A program made the translations under genes and the position numbers. Source: Terriglobia bacterium (GTDB lineage Bacteria; Acidobacteriota; Terriglobia; Acidiferrales; UBA7541). From it: a stretch of DNA of 62,215 nucleotides. Below the pieces are notes generated by a model. That model did no database searches, was not told where the DNA came from, and saw only the letters and a program-made list of their open reading frames with translations. Shown piece by piece: positions 12,135 to 30,451 of the stretch. Within the stretch, counting starts at the first letter, position 1; each line of letters begins with the position of its first letter. The stretch covers positions 1-62,215 of the forward strand of contig JAIQGD010000004.1 of NCBI GenBank assembly GCA_020072765.1, written 5' to 3'.

Positions 12135-13319
12135 ATGAAACGACTGATACCTGCCTGGGGAGCGCTGCTGCTGGCTCTATTACTCGCTCCGAGCGTCATC
12201 GCACAGAACGCACGCGTCAATGGCCAAGTGACGGATCGCGACGGCAAGCCGTGGGCGGGCGTCACGGTCACCATCAAGAGCGACACCGGTCAGGTCTTTA
12301 CCGTGAAGACCGACAAGGGCGGGAAGTACAGCCAGATCGGATTGCGCGCCGGCGTGTACACGTTCACGCTGACCGCCGCGGAGCCGGATAACTTTACTTA
12401 CTCGGAGAAGCGTTCGGTGAGTTCCGGCGACGACAACGATATTTCGTTCAACTTCAAGGCGATCGCCGCGCAGCAGGGCGCGGCGCGTCCCGAAGATGTC
12501 AAAAAGAAAGAAGACGAGGCCGCCCAATTCAAGAACACCAAAGCCCACGTGGATGCGGGCATCGCGGCGCTGCAGGGCACCGACGATCTGCGCAAAAAGC
12601 TCCGGACGGCCACGGCGGATCAGAAGAAGGATATCCAGGATCAATTGACCGCCGCCTATCAGACGGCCGTCACGGAATTGCAGGCCGCCGAGCAGGGCAT
12701 CAGCGCGAAGGACACCAAGAATCACGCCGTGATCTTGGCCAACCTGGGCCAGGCGTACGGCTTTGCCGGGCGGCACGAGGATGCCGCCAGCGCCTACCAG
12801 AAATCCATTGACCTGAACCCGCAGGCCGGTGTGTACGTCGGGCTGAGCACGGAGGTGGCCAACTTGGCGGTGGCGCAAACCGACCCAGCGGCCGTCAGCG
12901 CCAAAGTCACCGAAGCCGGAGGCAACTGCGAAAAGGCTGCGGCCCTCGATACCACCACGGCGACCGCCACCACGGCGCGCTGCTGGAAGAATATCGGCAT
13001 CGTCTTGAGCAACACCGGGCATTTGGCGGAGGCTGTTATGCCGCTCCAGAAAGCCACCGAGGCGGATCCCAAGGACGCCCAAACGTGGTTCCTGCTGGGC
13101 GGGGCTCTCGCGGCCACCATTGGAACGAAGCAGGAGGGGAATAAGATGACCTATATTTTCCCTCCGGGACTAACCGACGCCTACCAGCACTGCATTGATG
13201 CCGATCCGAATGGGCCGTACGCTGGGCAGGCCAAGACGGCGTTGGATGGGCTGGTCGCGCTGAGCGGCGGCGTGGAAACCAGCGTGGGCGAACGCGCGAA
13301 AGCCAAGAAGAAGAAATAG
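12135..13319 (+). CDS. Secreted protein with carboxypeptidase-regulatory-like domain and TPR repeats
   Basis: The ATG at 12135 gives a clear signal peptide (MKRLIPAWGALLLALLLAPS, cleavage after VIAQ). An upstream in-frame start at 12093 would spoil this. Residues about 25-115 form a beta-sandwich of the carboxypeptidase-regulatory-like type (GQVTDRDGKPWAGVTVTI). After a Lys- and Glu-rich linker, TPR-like helices follow: AVILANLGQAYGFAGRHEDA, ARCWKNIGIVLSNTGHLAEA and AQTWFLLGGALAATIG. The tail is Lys-rich. It probably works in the periplasm or at the outer membrane as a scaffold. The function is unknown. The gene begins 53 bases after queC but its content is unrelated. Confidence 0.75.
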   Translation: MKRLIPAWGALLLALLLAPSVIAQNARVNGQVTDRDGKPWAGVTVTIKSDTGQVFTVKTDKGGKYSQIGLRAGVYTFTLTAAEPDNFTYSEKRSVSSGDDNDISFNFKAIAAQQGAARPEDVKKKEDEAAQFKNTKAHVDAGIAALQGTDDLRKKLRTATADQKKDIQDQLTAAYQTAVTELQAAEQGISAKDTKNHAVILANLGQAYGFAGRHEDAASAYQKSIDLNPQAGVYVGLSTEVANLAVAQTDPAAVSAKVTEAGGNCEKAAALDTTTATATTARCWKNIGIVLSNTGHLAEAVMPLQKATEADPKDAQTWFLLGGALAATIGTKQEGNKMTYIFPPGLTDAYQHCIDADPNGPYAGQAKTALDGLVALSGGVETSVGERAKAKKKK

Positions 13320-13455
13320 CGATCGTGTCCTTGGGTGCATGCGCCGGGTTTGCCCCCGGCGCCAGGTTCCGGCCGGCGCCTGTTCCCGAGTTTGCTTCGC
13401 GCTCGACCTGAGGGCACGACAGTGCTATCCTCCGCTTATTACGTAGAGGAAGCCG

Positions 13456-16041
13456 GTGCCAGACGTGAACCCAGCCCACCCTAGTACCCAGCGTCGACGC
13501 AGCGAGCGGGTGTCCGCATCCGTGCCGCTGATCGTCCGCGGGATTGATCTCCTGGGCCAGCCGTTCGAGGAAAACACCGCCACCACGGCCGTCAACCTGC
13601 ACGGATGCCGCTATTCCTCCAAGCATCACTTGCCAAAAAACACCTGGGTGACGCTGGAACTGACCCACGGGCCGGAGCGTCGCAACGTGCGGGCGCGCGT
13701 GGCGTGGATTCAGCGCCCCCATTCGATCCGGGAATCATTTCAAATCGCTTTGGAGCTGGAGAGCCCGGGAAATCTTTGGGGTGTCGAGCCTGCCGCGGAT
13801 TGGGCCGTGGCTCCCTCGGAGACGCCCGGGGCCGCGCCGGCACGCCAGAGTCCACGCAGCGCGGAAACGTCTGAGGCGGAGGTGACTCCCGCCGCCAAGT
13901 CCCCTTTGGCGGAAGCGGTGGCTCCCGAAACCGTGCTGGGCTCTTCCGAGCCTGCCTCTGCGCCTGCTCCCTCTTTTGCAGCGGAATCCCTGCCCGATAG
14001 CCCGCTGCTGAATGAATGGAAAGCAGAGCTCGACCGGCAGGCAGTCCGCGCAGCGGACGAAGCGGCGGAGCAGGCCGTGGAGAAGATCCGGCGGACCTTG
14101 GATGAGTTGGATCGGGCGGAATCGGATGCGCGCGAGAGTTTTTCGGCCCAGTGGGCCGCGCGCCAACAGGAAGTTCTCGGCGGGCTGAAGTCGGAATTCG
14201 ACCAGGGGCTGGGGCGGGCCCGCGAAATTCTCCAGGAACTGGACGGCAAAGCCCAGGCGGTGCGCGCCGCAAGCGAAGAGGCGGTTCAGGCGGCCCATCG
14301 CATCGCCCACACACGCCTGGAAATGGAAGCGGCCGAAACCGCCCGGGCGCAGCAGTCCGCCGCGGCGTCGCGGCTGGAGGCGCTCACCGAAGGAGCCGCG
14401 GCCGAGTGGCGCCAACGCGTCGAGTCGGAAACAGCCCTGGCCCAGGCGCAATGGCACGAACTGCTGCAGTCCTCGCTCGACAGCAGCATCGAGCGCGTGG
14501 CCGAGCGGTTGTCCTCACGCTCGCAAGACGTTCTGCGCGGCGCCGACCAGAAGTTGTCCGAGAGGCTGGCCGAACTCCGCGAGCCGCTGGGGCAGATCTC
14601 CGCGGAGGCCCGCGATGCGCTCGCCGTCGTCAAGTCCTCGCTGGACGAAGAAGTGACGCGCGCCCGCTCCGCGCTGGCGGAAATCCAGCAGTCGGCGGGC
14701 CGCATGAAGGAATACGCGGCGCAGCTGGAGGCGGCCAGCCAGGATACCGTGAACGAATTGCACCGCCGGCTGGAGAACATCCTCGAGGCGCAAACCGACG
14801 AGATCCGCCGCCGCGCCGAAAATCTGGCGGCCGACCTGCCCCAGCGCCTCGCGCCCGCGCTGGATTCCCTGGGACAGCGCCTGGTGGAACGCACGGTGGC
14901 CGAAGCCGAAGCCAAGCTGGCCACGCGCACCGAACGCATCCCCGAACTTCTGCGCGAGCTGGCCGCCCGCGAACTGCAGGCCGAGGAGAGCCTCCGATTG
15001 CACCGCGAGCGGCTGCGCCAGGTCTCGGAGAACAATCACCGCGAAATCGCCGGGCAGATGGCGGCGACGCTCGCGACGCTTCGCGGTGATTTCGAATCCG
15101 CGCGCCAGGACGCCCTGGGAAAATGGAGTGAGGAATTGGACGCCAGCGGCGTGCGCGCTTCCCATGCCGCGGCCGAGTCCATCGGACGCGCCTCGGAATC
15201 GTTGCAGCGGGACGCGCGGGCGCGGCTCCAGGGGTTGGCCGACGAGATGCTGGCGAAGGCCGGCAGCGGCGTCGAGGAGAAGACCGCCGAGGCGGCCCGC
15301 CAATTCGGCGCCCGCCTGGAAGAGCAATCCTCGGGACGCCTGGCGGAAATCCAGCAGCACCTCGAAGGGGTCGCGGGCGAACTGGCGGGTCTGGCACGCA
15401 CGCAGCTCGGCGAGGCGGCCGATGCGGCCGCAGCATCGTTCGGGCAGGTCCTGCGCGGCCTCTCCGAGCAGGAAGTCCGGCAGTTTGCCGACAGCAGCCG
15501 CAGCGCGCTCCGGGAACGCGAGCAGGATGTGGCCCGTCTGGCCCAGCAGGCCCTGCAGAATTTGGAAGCCGACGCCGCCGCCTGGGTGGAGAACTTCCGC
15601 GGGCAAATGGCCTTGCAACTGGAAACCACGGTTGCCGAAGGACGCAGCTCCCTGGCCGCTGAGCTGGGCGCCGTTCTCGACGGCTACCGCGCCGAACGCG
15701 GCGCGCACGAGCAAGAATGGGCCGGGAACTTGGGCCGCCTGAGCGAGGAAGCGCTGGGGCACTATCAGGATCGGTTGCAGACGGCTTGCGATGCCTGGAT
15801 GGTCGCTTCGGTGCGCCGGCTCAACGAGCACGGACAAAACGTCATTGAATCGCTCACGCGTTCGGCGGATCAGGCGTTGCGCGACTCCTGCTCGAAAGTC
15901 TTTGAGGGCCTGGCGGAAATGCTGCGGGACCGCGCCACCAACGCCGCGGGCGTCGTCGGCTTCACGCCGGGCCTGGTCCGCGAAACCACCGAAGCGGCCG
16001 CGGCCCACCCGCAGGCGGCCACGAAGAATCCCAATGCTTGA
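13456..16041 (+). CDS. PilZ-domain protein with very long coiled coil
   Basis: The 861-residue frame starts with GTG at 13456 behind AGAGGA. Residues 1-115 resemble a PilZ domain: RRRSERVSASVPLIVRG gives the RxxxR c-di-GMP loop, TTAVNLHGCRY takes the place of the usual D/NxSxxG motif, and ARVAWIQ completes the fold. Residues about 170-850 are almost pure heptad-like sequence rich in Ala, Glu, Arg and Gln, as in apolipoprotein-like or chemoreceptor-like coiled coils. No membrane segment or signal peptide is evident, so it is probably a cytoplasmic fibrous protein. The PilZ second motif is imperfect (LHG instead of xSxxG), so ligand binding is uncertain. Neighbours do not reveal the role. Confidence 0.75.
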   Translation: MPDVNPAHPSTQRRRSERVSASVPLIVRGIDLLGQPFEENTATTAVNLHGCRYSSKHHLPKNTWVTLELTHGPERRNVRARVAWIQRPHSIRESFQIALELESPGNLWGVEPAADWAVAPSETPGAAPARQSPRSAETSEAEVTPAAKSPLAEAVAPETVLGSSEPASAPAPSFAAESLPDSPLLNEWKAELDRQAVRAADEAAEQAVEKIRRTLDELDRAESDARESFSAQWAARQQEVLGGLKSEFDQGLGRAREILQELDGKAQAVRAASEEAVQAAHRIAHTRLEMEAAETARAQQSAAASRLEALTEGAAAEWRQRVESETALAQAQWHELLQSSLDSSIERVAERLSSRSQDVLRGADQKLSERLAELREPLGQISAEARDALAVVKSSLDEEVTRARSALAEIQQSAGRMKEYAAQLEAASQDTVNELHRRLENILEAQTDEIRRRAENLAADLPQRLAPALDSLGQRLVERTVAEAEAKLATRTERIPELLRELAARELQAEESLRLHRERLRQVSENNHREIAGQMAATLATLRGDFESARQDALGKWSEELDASGVRASHAAAESIGRASESLQRDARARLQGLADEMLAKAGSGVEEKTAEAARQFGARLEEQSSGRLAEIQQHLEGVAGELAGLARTQLGEAADAAAASFGQVLRGLSEQEVRQFADSSRSALREREQDVARLAQQALQNLEADAAAWVENFRGQMALQLETTVAEGRSSLAAELGAVLDGYRAERGAHEQEWAGNLGRLSEEALGHYQDRLQTACDAWMVASVRRLNEHGQNVIESLTRSADQALRDSCSKVFEGLAEMLRDRATNAAGVVGFTPGLVRETTEAAAAHPQAATKNPNA

Positions 16042-27648: not shown

Positions 27649-28059
27649 CTACGGGTGGCTGCTGGCTTGGCGCGCGAACATCTCGCGGCTGTGGGAGATG
27701 CGCCGGTCCAGCACAACGGCGGCAAAATGCGCGCAGGCGATTTGGTCGCGCTCCGTCAAGGCGGCCACGCTCGGAATCAGCGCACCGCCGATGCGGCCGG
27801 CGATATCGAGCATGCGGTAGTAGATCCCGACCGCGCGCACCTGCCCTTGGTAGGAATTGTGCTCGGGGCAGAGAAACAAAAACTGCAACAGACGCCCGAA
27901 ATCCCCGGCCCCAATGCTCCGGCCGGTCACGCCGGCCAGTTCGCGCACCCGCTCCGACAGTTCGACATTCCGCGTCGAAGCCAGCACCGCGCGGCAGTAG
28001 CACACAAAGAACTGCGCGAGTGCCGCGGCCGAAACGACGCAAATCAATGCGGAGATCAT
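27649..28059 (-). CDS. Unknown small membrane-anchored protein
   Basis: A 136-residue protein. The start ATG 28059 overlaps the stop of the upstream seven-helix gene (ATGA), so it is translated with it. One N-terminal membrane helix (MISALICVVSAAALAQFFVC) is followed by a soluble region of about 105 residues containing FGRLLQFLFLCPEHNSYQGQ. I do not recognise a family. Its strict coupling to the membrane protein suggests that the two form a complex. The longer open frame upstream on this strand is a shadow. Confidence 0.75.
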   Translation of the reverse strand: MISALICVVSAAALAQFFVCYCRAVLASTRNVELSERVRELAGVTGRSIGAGDFGRLLQFLFLCPEHNSYQGQVRAVGIYYRMLDIAGRIGGALIPSVAALTERDQIACAHFAAVVLDRRISHSREMFARQASSHP

Positions 28060-28760
28060 CGCGCCGTCCTCCCTTCGAGCTGATACCTCAGGATCCGGGC
28101 TTCCTCCGGCACGCGCCAGAACGTGTAGCCCCAGGCCAGCGGCAGCAAAACTCCGAAAATCGGCGGCACCCATTGCAAGGCGAACGATTGCATGCTCGGG
28201 AAAAGGTTGCGCAGCGCGTAGGTCGCGGCCGTCCCGCTGAAATACAGGCCCAGCGCCAGCACCAGGTGGATCAGCCGCGCGCGCGTCTCGCGGAAATGCA
28301 GTATGGCGGCCCACAGGGCATAGGTCAGCACTACGCCCACGAAATACAGGTTCTGCCCGAACTCGACCACGAACTGCTTCGTCAGGTGCTCGCTATGCCT
28401 GTGGATGACCACATAGGAGAACAGCGCCGTCGCAAACAGCAACATCGAGGCCCCGCCGCGCACGTAGCGGTTGACACCCATGTCCGCGAACACTTGCTGA
28501 TAGAACTGGATGATCACGCAGAACAGCAGGATGGTGAGCAGGCTCTCGGTGTAGTAGTAGAGGGAATGGTATTGCTCGGAGCCGATGCCAAATCGCGCTA
28601 TGCAAAGGTAGTAGAGACACCCGATCGCAACCCTACAGAACATGTAGATCGCTACGGCGTAGTAGCGGGTGAGGGAACGGCTGGAAATGACGCAAACTAC
28701 CACACTAGCTTCTAGAACGAAGCCGATTGCCCAAAGCCAGTAATCGAACGGGCCGAGCAT
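28056..28760 (-). CDS. Unknown seven-helix membrane protein
   Basis: A 234-residue protein with seven clear hydrophobic helices, roughly at residues 6-27, 33-56, 63-86, 103-121, 131-152, 160-182 and 190-214, and short loops. Helix 3 is aromatic-rich (YHSLYYYTESLLTILLFCVI). I see no transporter or enzyme motif. A weak ribosome binding site (GAGG) precedes ATG 28760. The repeat-bearing small peptide gene ends 70 bases upstream on the same strand, and the membrane-anchored 136-residue protein follows with overlap. By layout alone it could be a receptor, processor or immunity partner for the peptide; this is inference. Confidence 0.78.
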   Translation of the reverse strand: MLGPFDYWLWAIGFVLEASVVVCVISSRSLTRYYAVAIYMFCRVAIGCLYYLCIARFGIGSEQYHSLYYYTESLLTILLFCVIIQFYQQVFADMGVNRYVRGGASMLLFATALFSYVVIHRHSEHLTKQFVVEFGQNLYFVGVVLTYALWAAILHFRETRARLIHLVLALGLYFSGTAATYALRNLFPSMQSFALQWVPPIFGVLLPLAWGYTFWRVPEEARILRYQLEGRTAR

Positions 28761-28830: not shown

Positions 28831-28995
28831 TTAGCGCGGCATTGGTTCCGGGCCATTGGCCAGTGTCGATGCCGCAATGCGCGGCATTGGTTCCGGGCCG
28901 TTGGCAAATGTCGAATGAGTGCTCAAAGCCTTCAGCCCCATCGCGCTGGTCATGATCGACAGAGCTAACAACATGACAACTGACCACTTATTCAT
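28831..28995 (-). CDS. Small secreted or membrane peptide with tandem ANGPEPMPR repeats
   Basis: A 54-residue frame. The N-terminus MNKWSVVMLLALSIMTSAMG is a signal peptide or single membrane helix. The mature part has two copies of a 15-residue unit, TFANGPEPMPRIAAS and TLANGPEPMPR, and ends right after the second. A very good ribosome binding site (GAGGAGGAG, 4-5 bases before ATG) is present, but it and the ATG lie in a long hairpin (28991-29037). A candidate promoter is at 29141-29169. The frame is the first of a run with the seven-helix protein and its coupled partner. The end-duplicated motif recalls multi-copy peptide pheromone precursors; the hidden start recalls type I toxins. Neither is proven. 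Confidence 0.7.
   Translation of the reverse strand: MNKWSVVMLLALSIMTSAMGLKALSTHSTFANGPEPMPRIAASTLANGPEPMPR
28834..28905. repeat. In-frame 45-bp tandem duplication inside the peptide gene
   Basis: GCGCGGCATTGGTTCCGGGC occurs at 28834 and again at 28879, exactly 45 bases apart, with one or two changes in the following bases. The unit is a multiple of three, and the frame of the minus-strand peptide is kept across it. Confidence 0.85.
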
Positions 28996-29037
28996 AGACT
29001 CCTCCTCACAAAGATGTGATGGAGCGGAGTCTATGAA
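28991..29037 (-). promoter_or_regulatory. Hairpin that sequesters the ribosome binding site and start codon of the peptide gene
   Basis: On the minus strand, TTCATAGACTCC (29026-29037) pairs perfectly with GGAGTCTATGAA (28991-29002). The helix goes on through TCC/GGA and TCACA/TGTGA to the tetraloop TCTT, with only a GC bulge and one extra A on the 5' side. About 20 base pairs in all. The 3' strand holds both the Shine-Dalgarno GAGGAGG and the AUG of the 54-residue peptide. Such an arrangement should block translation unless the stem is opened by heat, antisense RNA, ligand or passing ribosomes. Confidence 0.75.
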
Positions 29038-29068
29038 GGGTCTAGTGCCATGGCGAGGTAAATCTTAT

Positions 29069-29095
29069 GGGTGTGTGTCTAAACGGTACACACCC
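29069..29095 (-). other. Second hairpin in the leader of the peptide gene
   Basis: GGGTGTGT (29069-29076 on the plus strand) pairs with ACACACCC (29088-29095), an 8-bp stem with an 11-base loop. It lies between the candidate promoter and the start-codon hairpin, so a leader of about 140 nt would carry two stems. No known riboswitch class is recognised. Confidence 0.5.
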
Positions 29096-29140
29096 CTCCC
29101 TCGCCCTCTAGAGCCAGAGCCTCACCGAATTGTCGAGTTC

Positions 29141-29169
29141 AAATTAGTTTTTCCCTTGGTTGGCGTCAA
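29141..29169 (-). promoter_or_regulatory. Candidate promoter for the peptide gene
   Basis: On the minus strand, TTGACG (29164-29169) and TAATTT (29141-29146) are separated by 17 bases. The -35 box is good and the -10 box moderate. The start of transcription would be near 29134. The opposite-facing phosphoesterase gene starts at 29333. Confidence 0.4.
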
Positions 29170-29332
29170 TGTTACGAAAGTACTACCCGCGCCACCTGTT
29201 CGATTGGTGAGCGGGGCACCCCTTGCAACGAACAGCAGAGGGGTTGCCATCCGCGAAGGCTCGCGGCACAATGACGTGCCCCAGTGGGAGCCCGGCGCGC
29301 GTTGGGGGGCGGAATATGCTGGTGAAAACTCC

Positions 29333-30451
29333 ATGAAGCGACGAATCCTGTTGGTTTTGGCGGCTCTAGCCCTGGCATTTCTCGCGGGCGGCCAACTCTC
29401 AGCCCACGCGCAGACGGACGGCCAGAAACCGCCCTCCGCGCCCCACGCCCAGCCCGCGCCGTGGAAATTCGCCGTCTCCGGCGATTCCCGCAACTGTGGC
29501 GACGTGGTCATGCCCGCGATCGCGGGCCGTGTGCGGCAGAGCGGAGCGCTGTTCTACTGGCACCTCGGCGATTTCCGCAAGATGACCGGCCCCGACGAGG
29601 ACATCCAGCACCAGCCCGAGCATCGCGCCGCGCCGCTATCGGAAGTCGCGTACCGGGAACTGGCCTGGAAGGATTTTCTCGATAGCCAGATCGCGCCGTT
29701 TGGCTCTGTTCCCGTCTATCTGGGCATCGGCAACCACGAGACGGCCCGCAAGACGCGCCCTGATTTCATGGTTCAGTTTCGTGATTGGCTGGACGCCCCG
29801 AACCTCCGCGCCCAGCGCCTCCGCGATGATCCCCACGGTCTCGATCCGAAGACGTATTACCACTGGACCGAGGACGGCGTGGACTTCATCAATCTCGACA
29901 ACGCCACCGAAGAGCAGTTTGATGCCGATCAGATCGCCTGGCTCGAAAAGACGCTCCGCTCCGACATGGCCAATCGCCGCATCCGCGCGATCGTCGTGGG
30001 GATGCACGAGGCGCTCCCTGAAAGCCTCGGCAAGAACCACAGCATGAATCAGTCGGCCGCGGGGATCGAGAGCGGCCGGCGCGTTTACGCCGATCTTCTC
30101 CGGGCGCGGCGTACCAGTCACAAACGCGTTTACGTCCTGGCCAGCCATTCCCACTATTTTATGGACGGCATTTTCAATACGGACTATTGGAAACAACACG
30201 GGGGAGTCCTGCCGGGATGGATCGTCGGCACGGCGGGCGCGGCCCGGTATGCCTTGCCGGAAGAGTCAGCGCAGGCGCGTGCCGCGGAAACTAATGTCTA
30301 TGGGTTTCTGACCGGCACCGTGCAGGCCCACGGCAACATCGTATTCGCCTTCGAACGCGTGAACGAGCCGGAAGTCCCGGCGGCCGTCGTGGCGCGCTAC
30401 ACGCCGGAGTTCGTGCATTGGTGCTTTGCTGAAAATTCCGCCGCGCACTGA
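29333..30451 (+). CDS. Secreted calcineurin-like metallophosphoesterase
   Basis: A 372-residue exported phosphoesterase starting at ATG 29333, with a clear signal peptide (MKRRILLVLAALALAFLAGG, cleavage near AHAQ). The metal-site motifs of the calcineurin-like fold are present: SGDSRNCGD, HLGDFRK, GIGNHET, VGMHEALPE and LASHSHYFMDG. It should hydrolyse phosphomonoesters or diesters in the periplasm; the substrate is unknown. The frame is open further upstream to 28919, but that part crosses the hairpin region and would remove the signal peptide from the N-terminus. The ribosome binding site is weak. Confidence 0.85.
   Translation: MKRRILLVLAALALAFLAGGQLSAHAQTDGQKPPSAPHAQPAPWKFAVSGDSRNCGDVVMPAIAGRVRQSGALFYWHLGDFRKMTGPDEDIQHQPEHRAAPLSEVAYRELAWKDFLDSQIAPFGSVPVYLGIGNHETARKTRPDFMVQFRDWLDAPNLRAQRLRDDPHGLDPKTYYHWTEDGVDFINLDNATEEQFDADQIAWLEKTLRSDMANRRIRAIVVGMHEALPESLGKNHSMNQSAAGIESGRRVYADLLRARRTSHKRVYVLASHSHYFMDGIFNTDYWKQHGGVLPGWIVGTAGAARYALPEESAQARAAETNVYGFLTGTVQAHGNIVFAFERVNEPEVPAAVVARYTPEFVHWCFAENSAAH

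Follow-up and report, generated by a model that had tools for sequence, protein, structure and literature searches.

A family of tandem-repeat peptide genes in Acidobacteria linked to a seven-helix membrane protein: a candidate pheromone and receptor

The window, the stretch of 62,215 nucleotides from a Terriglobia bacterium that was analysed as a whole, contains a short gene for a putative peptide precursor beside genes for two membrane proteins, here called TM1 and TM2 (Table 1). The peptide frame translates as MNKWSVVMLLALSIMTSAMGLKALSTHSTFANGPEPMPRIAASTLANGPEPMPR*. The original prediction had placed an open reading frame (ORF) at these positions, correctly, without stating its strand; the ORF is on the minus strand, and the plus-strand reading is interrupted by stops. 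Other features predicted for this gene held up on closer analysis: the strong ribosome binding site, GAGGAGGAG, lies just 5´ of the ATG, the hydrophobic, signal-like N-terminus is retained in the alignment of relatives, and the gene ends directly after the second repeat. The in-frame repeat is also present, but the proposed 45-bp duplication has to be restated, as the matched copies (28834-28869 and 28879-28914) are 36 nt long with 92% identity, and 45 nt is their start-to-start spacing. The 54-residue ORF is real and conserved beyond chance, its leader, reading frame and repeats being found again in dozens of relatives. In the family of the window's peptide the leader runs about ten residues beyond the hydrophobic core, which leaves the cleavage site uncertain. 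A mechanically called metallophosphoesterase-like ORF on the plus strand (28919-30451) begins antisense to the peptide gene, such that automatic annotation could mask the latter; the likely true start of this ORF is an ATG at about 29333, with the signal sequence MKRRILLVLAALALAF.

Table 1. Position of the peptide gene, its parts and the associated features within the window.
Feature	Position	Strand	Basis
TM2, 136 aa, N-terminal transmembrane helix and helical domain, proposed signal partner	27649..28059	-	Adjoins TM1, 4-nt overlap
TM1, 234-aa seven-helix membrane protein, proposed receptor	28056..28760	-	Peptide-adjacent across families; structural model; co-varies with unit
Peptide precursor gene, 54 aa and stop	28831..28995	-	Open frame; relatives with same leader; silent-site drift among copies
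Unit 2, NGPEPMPR, residues 47-54, terminates at stop codon	28834..28857	-	Sequence and DNA repeat
Unit 1, NGPEPMPR, residues 32-39	28879..28902	-	Sequence and DNA repeat
Leader, residues 1-31	28903..28995	-	Hydrophobic, signal-like; cleavage after Ala31 inferred; conserved in alignment A1
Predicted hairpin spanning ribosome site and start codon	28991..29037	-	Arms 29026-29037 and 28991-29002; perfect 12-nt inverted repeat, folds

A six-frame search of 100 related genomes identified peptides with the same leader and other units (ANTGSPMPPTPW x4, NTPGPMPPSPW x3 and AHTSAPVPPTPY x2). In total, we catalogued 60 distinct relatives and observed dozens beyond those. Their architecture is a hydrophobic leader followed by a short, usually proline-containing unit whose sequence differs from species to species. 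The original prediction had called for relatives with varying repeat number, and both were found, with one to at least ten copies; these leaders with tandem units lend support to its comparison with the layout of multi-copy peptide signals, although secretion and signalling remain inferred. Frame-breaking changes in relatives, which it named as a possible refutation, are absent with one exception (locus L073).

The order peptide-TM1 (234 aa)-TM2 (136 aa) is common to 14 genomes, with tilS next in 12 of the 14. Querying with TM1 returned 50 named loci, 49 of them titled Acidobacteria or a subgroup (for example Candidatus Acidiferrales) and one titled Betaproteobacteria. TM1 and TM2 are adjacent in 49/49 loci, usually with the 4-nt overlap, and a peptide sequence is present at all 45 loci of this first set that have at least 300 nt upstream, intact and adjacent at 43. 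The two atypical loci have the peptide 1.1 kb upstream (L091) or the leader and units in different frames (L073). We considered the tilS neighbourhood as functionally relevant and rejected it, as the module is located elsewhere in other genera; in one genus the main module lies away from tilS, indicating that the module is independent of that gene.

With a broader TM1 profile, matches were found in 185 of 399 genomes of the class and 73 of 136 genera. A leader-bearing short ORF lies upstream in most of 40 further loci at divergent TM1 matches, with units such as HGPDGDPGGDGNF x4, AGPWPFPDDSAGGNIA x3, DGTTTAPEMR x3 and SGTGLPIPGSGLR x7. Under a fixed criterion, an ORF no more than 900 nt upstream with leader plus repeat, such peptides occur at 59 of 82 TM1 loci compared with 1 of 119 control genes; most of the 23 failing loci have a single-copy peptide, and at a few TM1 loci (L210, L227, L232, L234) no peptide was found. 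In another family, finished genomes contain as many as six TM1 matches apiece, with long arrays (SISPLPPPDPWGDGL x8-9, AVTGSDPMPKSKGGLTTI about ten) or single copies. The window's genome itself has a second locus (contig 19, approximately 12800-13800; L253, L267), where DVPNPGPH x4 precedes a TM1-like gene and then a membrane-anchored one. Such coexistence, within a single genome, of several pairs that differ in their units is what insulated channels would predict. Outside the class we observed weak TM1-profile matches only, none with a visible repeat peptide, and no peptide relatives were found on plasmids. We conclude that the peptide family is large and undescribed, and resides in soil Acidobacteria. 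Members of the Acidobacteriota rank among the most abundant bacteria in soil.

Comparison of the copies within each gene, using a DNA alignment blind to reading frame, indicates how the repeats are maintained. Across 39 genes, all repeat shifts are multiples of three, 304 of 340 mismatches fall at third positions, and copy against copy gives a pS of 0.36 and a pN of 0.023. In a replicate on 27 separate genes, most of them belonging to other families, 241 of 267 mismatches were at third positions, with a pS of 0.273 and a pN of 0.012. The window's own repeat has three mismatches only: a silent one, plus two within the F/L codon, which lies outside the unit core. Silent drift combined with constant amino acids argues for translation and for a requirement that every copy encode an identical peptide. 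By itself, gene conversion is insufficient, since silent differences would vanish too. These substitution patterns show that copies of one peptide are held identical by amino-acid selection, as required of a multi-copy pheromone precursor.

The unit and TM1 are also linked in their divergence. Among 43 systems, unit distance correlates with TM1 distance (rho 0.69), and the partial correlation given TM2 is 0.64 (p 0.001); with TM1 removed, the unit does not track TM2 (-0.06) and only weakly tracks its own leader (0.18). In the 22 systems with a linked tilS, for which TilS distance served as a marker of descent, the unit-TM1 correlation given TilS is 0.60 (p 0.001), versus -0.09 for unit and TilS given TM1. 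Because partial Mantel tests may err on the liberal side, and unit boundaries were set by eye, we place the weight on how TM1 differs from the linked controls. On that contrast, unit and TM1 co-diverge. The inner and outer halves of TM1 both add to the correlation, and co-variation alone therefore maps no binding site.

The 5´ region of the peptide genes is predicted to be structured. The 12-nt inverted repeat of the window occurs once in the genome. For 60 peptide genes, folds of the region from -45 to +6 compared with shuffled sequences gave a mean z of -3.2 (below -2 in 46 of 60), with ribosome-site bases predicted to be paired in 53 of 60, whereas 41 control genes with a ribosome site gave a mean z of -0.03 (below -2 in 2 of 41), with pairing in 13. 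A consensus RNA fold on the MAFFT alignment of 5´ regions contained zero pairs, as loop lengths differ, and covariation was uninformative. Support for the hairpin thus comes from folding individual sequences and comparing them with shuffles and with control genes; covariation contributes none. Just before the hairpin, conserved TTGAC and (T)ATAGA blocks, approximately 14 nt apart, were noted upstream of peptide genes (for example L055, L061, L067). A sigma-70 reading of these blocks was dropped because the spacing is too short; they may represent another promoter type or an operator.

An AlphaFold2 model of TM1 based on a 49-sequence alignment (pLDDT 90, pTM 0.85) has seven long helices. Lysine and arginine residues cluster near loops 1, 3 and 5 and in the C-terminal tail, a distribution that implies an N-out/C-in topology. 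Conservation is highest in loop 5, the cytoplasmic loop between TM5 and TM6, and along the inner portions of helices 5 and 6; helices 2 and 7 are most variable at their outer ends. There is no domain beyond helix 7, the chain ending 18 residues after it. All of the listed matches to PDB structures are GPCRs, GPCR-like domains, microbial rhodopsins or designed analogues. Foldseek E values of 0.06-0.3 (best 0.063) are not significant, however, and identity is about 10%. The best VIA match has a Z of 14.0 and an rmsd of 4.3 over 218 residues, and helical bundles can reach Z 14 without kinship. The arrangement in the model is GPCR/rhodopsin-like, and homology is not shown. TM1 matched no Pfam (including 7TM), NCBIfam or PDB sequence family, and neither TM1 nor TM2 had a kinase match in Pfam. 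The AlphaFold2 model of TM2 (pLDDT 82) consists of one transmembrane helix and a helical domain. Its fold search returned no convincing relative, so its role is a guess.

In sum, searches of the peptide, TM1 and TM2 against Pfam, NCBIfam and PDB sequences gave chance-level matches only, and a literature search for the repeat motif returned nothing relevant. One close parallel is eukaryotic. Yeast alpha-factor is made as a signal-bearing multi-copy precursor (MFalpha) and recognized by the cognate seven-helix receptor Ste2, the species-specific ligand and receptor diverging together. The system described here is similarly composed of a multi-copy precursor and a co-diverging seven-helix partner. 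It differs in being bacterial, in having adjacent peptide and TM1 genes and a third, membrane-anchored gene, and in having no known G protein; no sequence relation was detected. TM1 likewise resembles GPCRs and microbial rhodopsins in its modelled seven helices and N-out/C-in topology, and its best structural matches are of this type, with the low identity and non-significant E values given above.

Among bacteria, AgrD/AgrC and ComC/ComD involve a secreted peptide sensed by a multi-helix membrane histidine kinase encoded alongside. Here too the peptide gene adjoins the gene for a multi-helix membrane protein, but TM1 has no kinase domain and the module, at the listed loci, has no AgrB-type processing enzyme. 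The view that no such bacterial family had been described stands within Pfam, NCBIfam and the papers searched, with the qualification that tandem-duplicated pheromone propeptides are known in Bacillota, where the Phr propeptides of Rap-Phr (RRNPPA) systems provide the nearest bacterial layout (PMC5199041; PMC11343458). Both systems have a small propeptide with a repeated pheromone or putative pheromone that is encoded with its receptor or putative receptor, duplicated and diversified. The window's gene has the leader and C-terminal repeats up to the stop of an RRNPPA propeptide (secretion being inferred), but lacks the cytosolic TPR receptor, its neighbour being a seven-helix membrane protein with no Pfam match. 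Rap receptors are cytosolic and the Phr peptide is imported. The present system further differs in occurring in Gram-negative Acidobacteria, with units of about 8-18 residues that can be repeated ten or more times. In a search limited to open-access papers, we found no description of peptide signalling in Acidobacteriota or of 7TM pheromone receptors in bacteria. We are aware of no bacterial peptide system whose partner is a bare seven-helix protein. For this reason, and because all three proteins fall outside catalogued families, we rate the system as new, while under a stricter view it could be a variant of peptide signalling.

We favor, with some confidence though well short of certainty, the interpretation that these loci encode a tandem-repeat peptide pheromone and a cognate stand-alone 7TM receptor, with secretion, processing, binding and output all inferred. 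In this model, the hydrophobic leader would direct the precursor into the Sec pathway, and proteases might cleave at or near the junctions between hydrophobic-Ala and the unit (TFA|N and TLA|N in the window peptide), freeing multiple copies of a single short peptide that in the window's strain would be approximately NGPEPMPR. TM1 would be the receptor, as inferred from linkage, co-evolution and topology. Its conserved cytoplasmic side could relay the signal to the membrane-anchored helical TM2, the weakest step, and the predicted hairpin at the ribosome site may limit or gate peptide synthesis. Against signalling, the unit occurs only once in some systems and no peptide was seen at a few TM1 loci; moreover, there are no expression, secretion, processing or binding data, and neither an output gene nor a transcription factor has been identified. 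Whether the loci amount to a bacterial counterpart of peptide hormones and GPCRs, with class-wide, lineage-specific tandem-repeat pheromones in Acidobacteriota, each with a GPCR-like receptor and a membrane-anchored transducer, is a broader proposition on which we are evenly divided.

The main rival, unlikely in our judgement yet deserving serious attention, is a secreted multi-copy antimicrobial or kin-discrimination peptide for which TM1 (and TM2) would provide cognate immunity or export. Toxin and immunity pairs co-evolve and diversify too, so that linkage and co-variation are compatible with this explanation, and membrane immunity proteins are common. Transduction is nevertheless a better fit to a 7TM protein with N-out/C-in topology whose conservation peaks at the TM5-TM6 cytoplasmic loop; no toxin-like, export or modification gene was seen in the module at the listed loci, and the units are small, frequently of eight to thirteen residues, and for the most part without charge. 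It is also conceivable, if rather doubtful, that the peptide is never released and acts in or on its own cell, as a membrane-tethered ligand or small subunit regulating TM1. The leader in the window's family may stay uncleaved, and co-evolution with TM1 requires contact only. Many identical copies are, however, better suited to a released ligand, and in other families the relatives carry classical signal peptides that terminate in an AxA-like motif (for example ...ATPAHA before GIFGSEPMPP). Either of these explanations would account for much of the evidence.

A regulatory leader ORF would do so poorly, and we regard it as improbable. Such an ORF would act as a stalling element or attenuator, with proline-rich pausing and an export-sensing signal sequence controlling the downstream membrane proteins, and a short signal-like ORF with PP motifs just 5´ of would-be targets, in a structured 5´ region, is indeed what we find. 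Yet stalling needs one motif and not up to ten identical copies, PP is missing from many units (for example DGTTTAPEMR and HGPDGDPGGDGNF), the unit follows the TM1 protein sequence rather than gene context, and the peptide is in one case located 1.1 kb upstream. Very little weight is left for an enzyme-modified RiPP precursor with several core repeats, despite the fact that a leader with repeated cores is the layout of some RiPP classes and that some single-copy relatives have paired cysteines: the leader is Sec-like in appearance, and no modification or protease/transport enzyme lies inside the module at the listed loci (few neighbours were Pfam-scanned, and such enzymes could still be encoded elsewhere in the genome).

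If the pheromone-receptor interpretation is correct, a bare seven-helix protein would be a partner type undescribed for bacterial peptide signals. There would be well over a hundred natural ligand-receptor pairs with specificity readable from sequence, in which the co-evolution of ligand and receptor, and the sensing of peptides by seven-helix proteins beyond eukaryotes, could be studied. The most informative features were absent from the original prediction: the seven-helix neighbour and its co-evolution with the unit, the module's third gene, the ribosome-site hairpin and the class-wide spread. More generally, standard gene calling can overlook a whole functional family of short genes.

We also documented several variants of this layout. 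At L062, L072, L086 and L090, relatives of the window peptide have degenerate or single units (for example a C-terminal IIVGPAPW) with TM1 and TM2 intact. Single-copy relatives of family f11 (L239, L240, L243, L246, L248, L256, L263 and others) frequently terminate in a short segment containing one or two cysteines (for example GGDPVPICPPDGC); this segment could carry a disulfide bond or a modification. In family f9 (L132, L136, L137), arrays of ADGGGPIPPAPTQI or ADGPEPVPPTAVLI lie upstream of a membrane protein similar in size. A profile comparison of these proteins with TM1 was not significant, and we therefore count the f9 pairs as a likeness of layout only, possibly a parallel or very distant branch. 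Finally, in a 4,127,356-bp genome (L250, L273), three tandem paralogous peptide genes (GIFGSEPMPPVNLPPHS...) lie upstream of one TM1-type gene, duplicated genes here replacing within-gene repeats.
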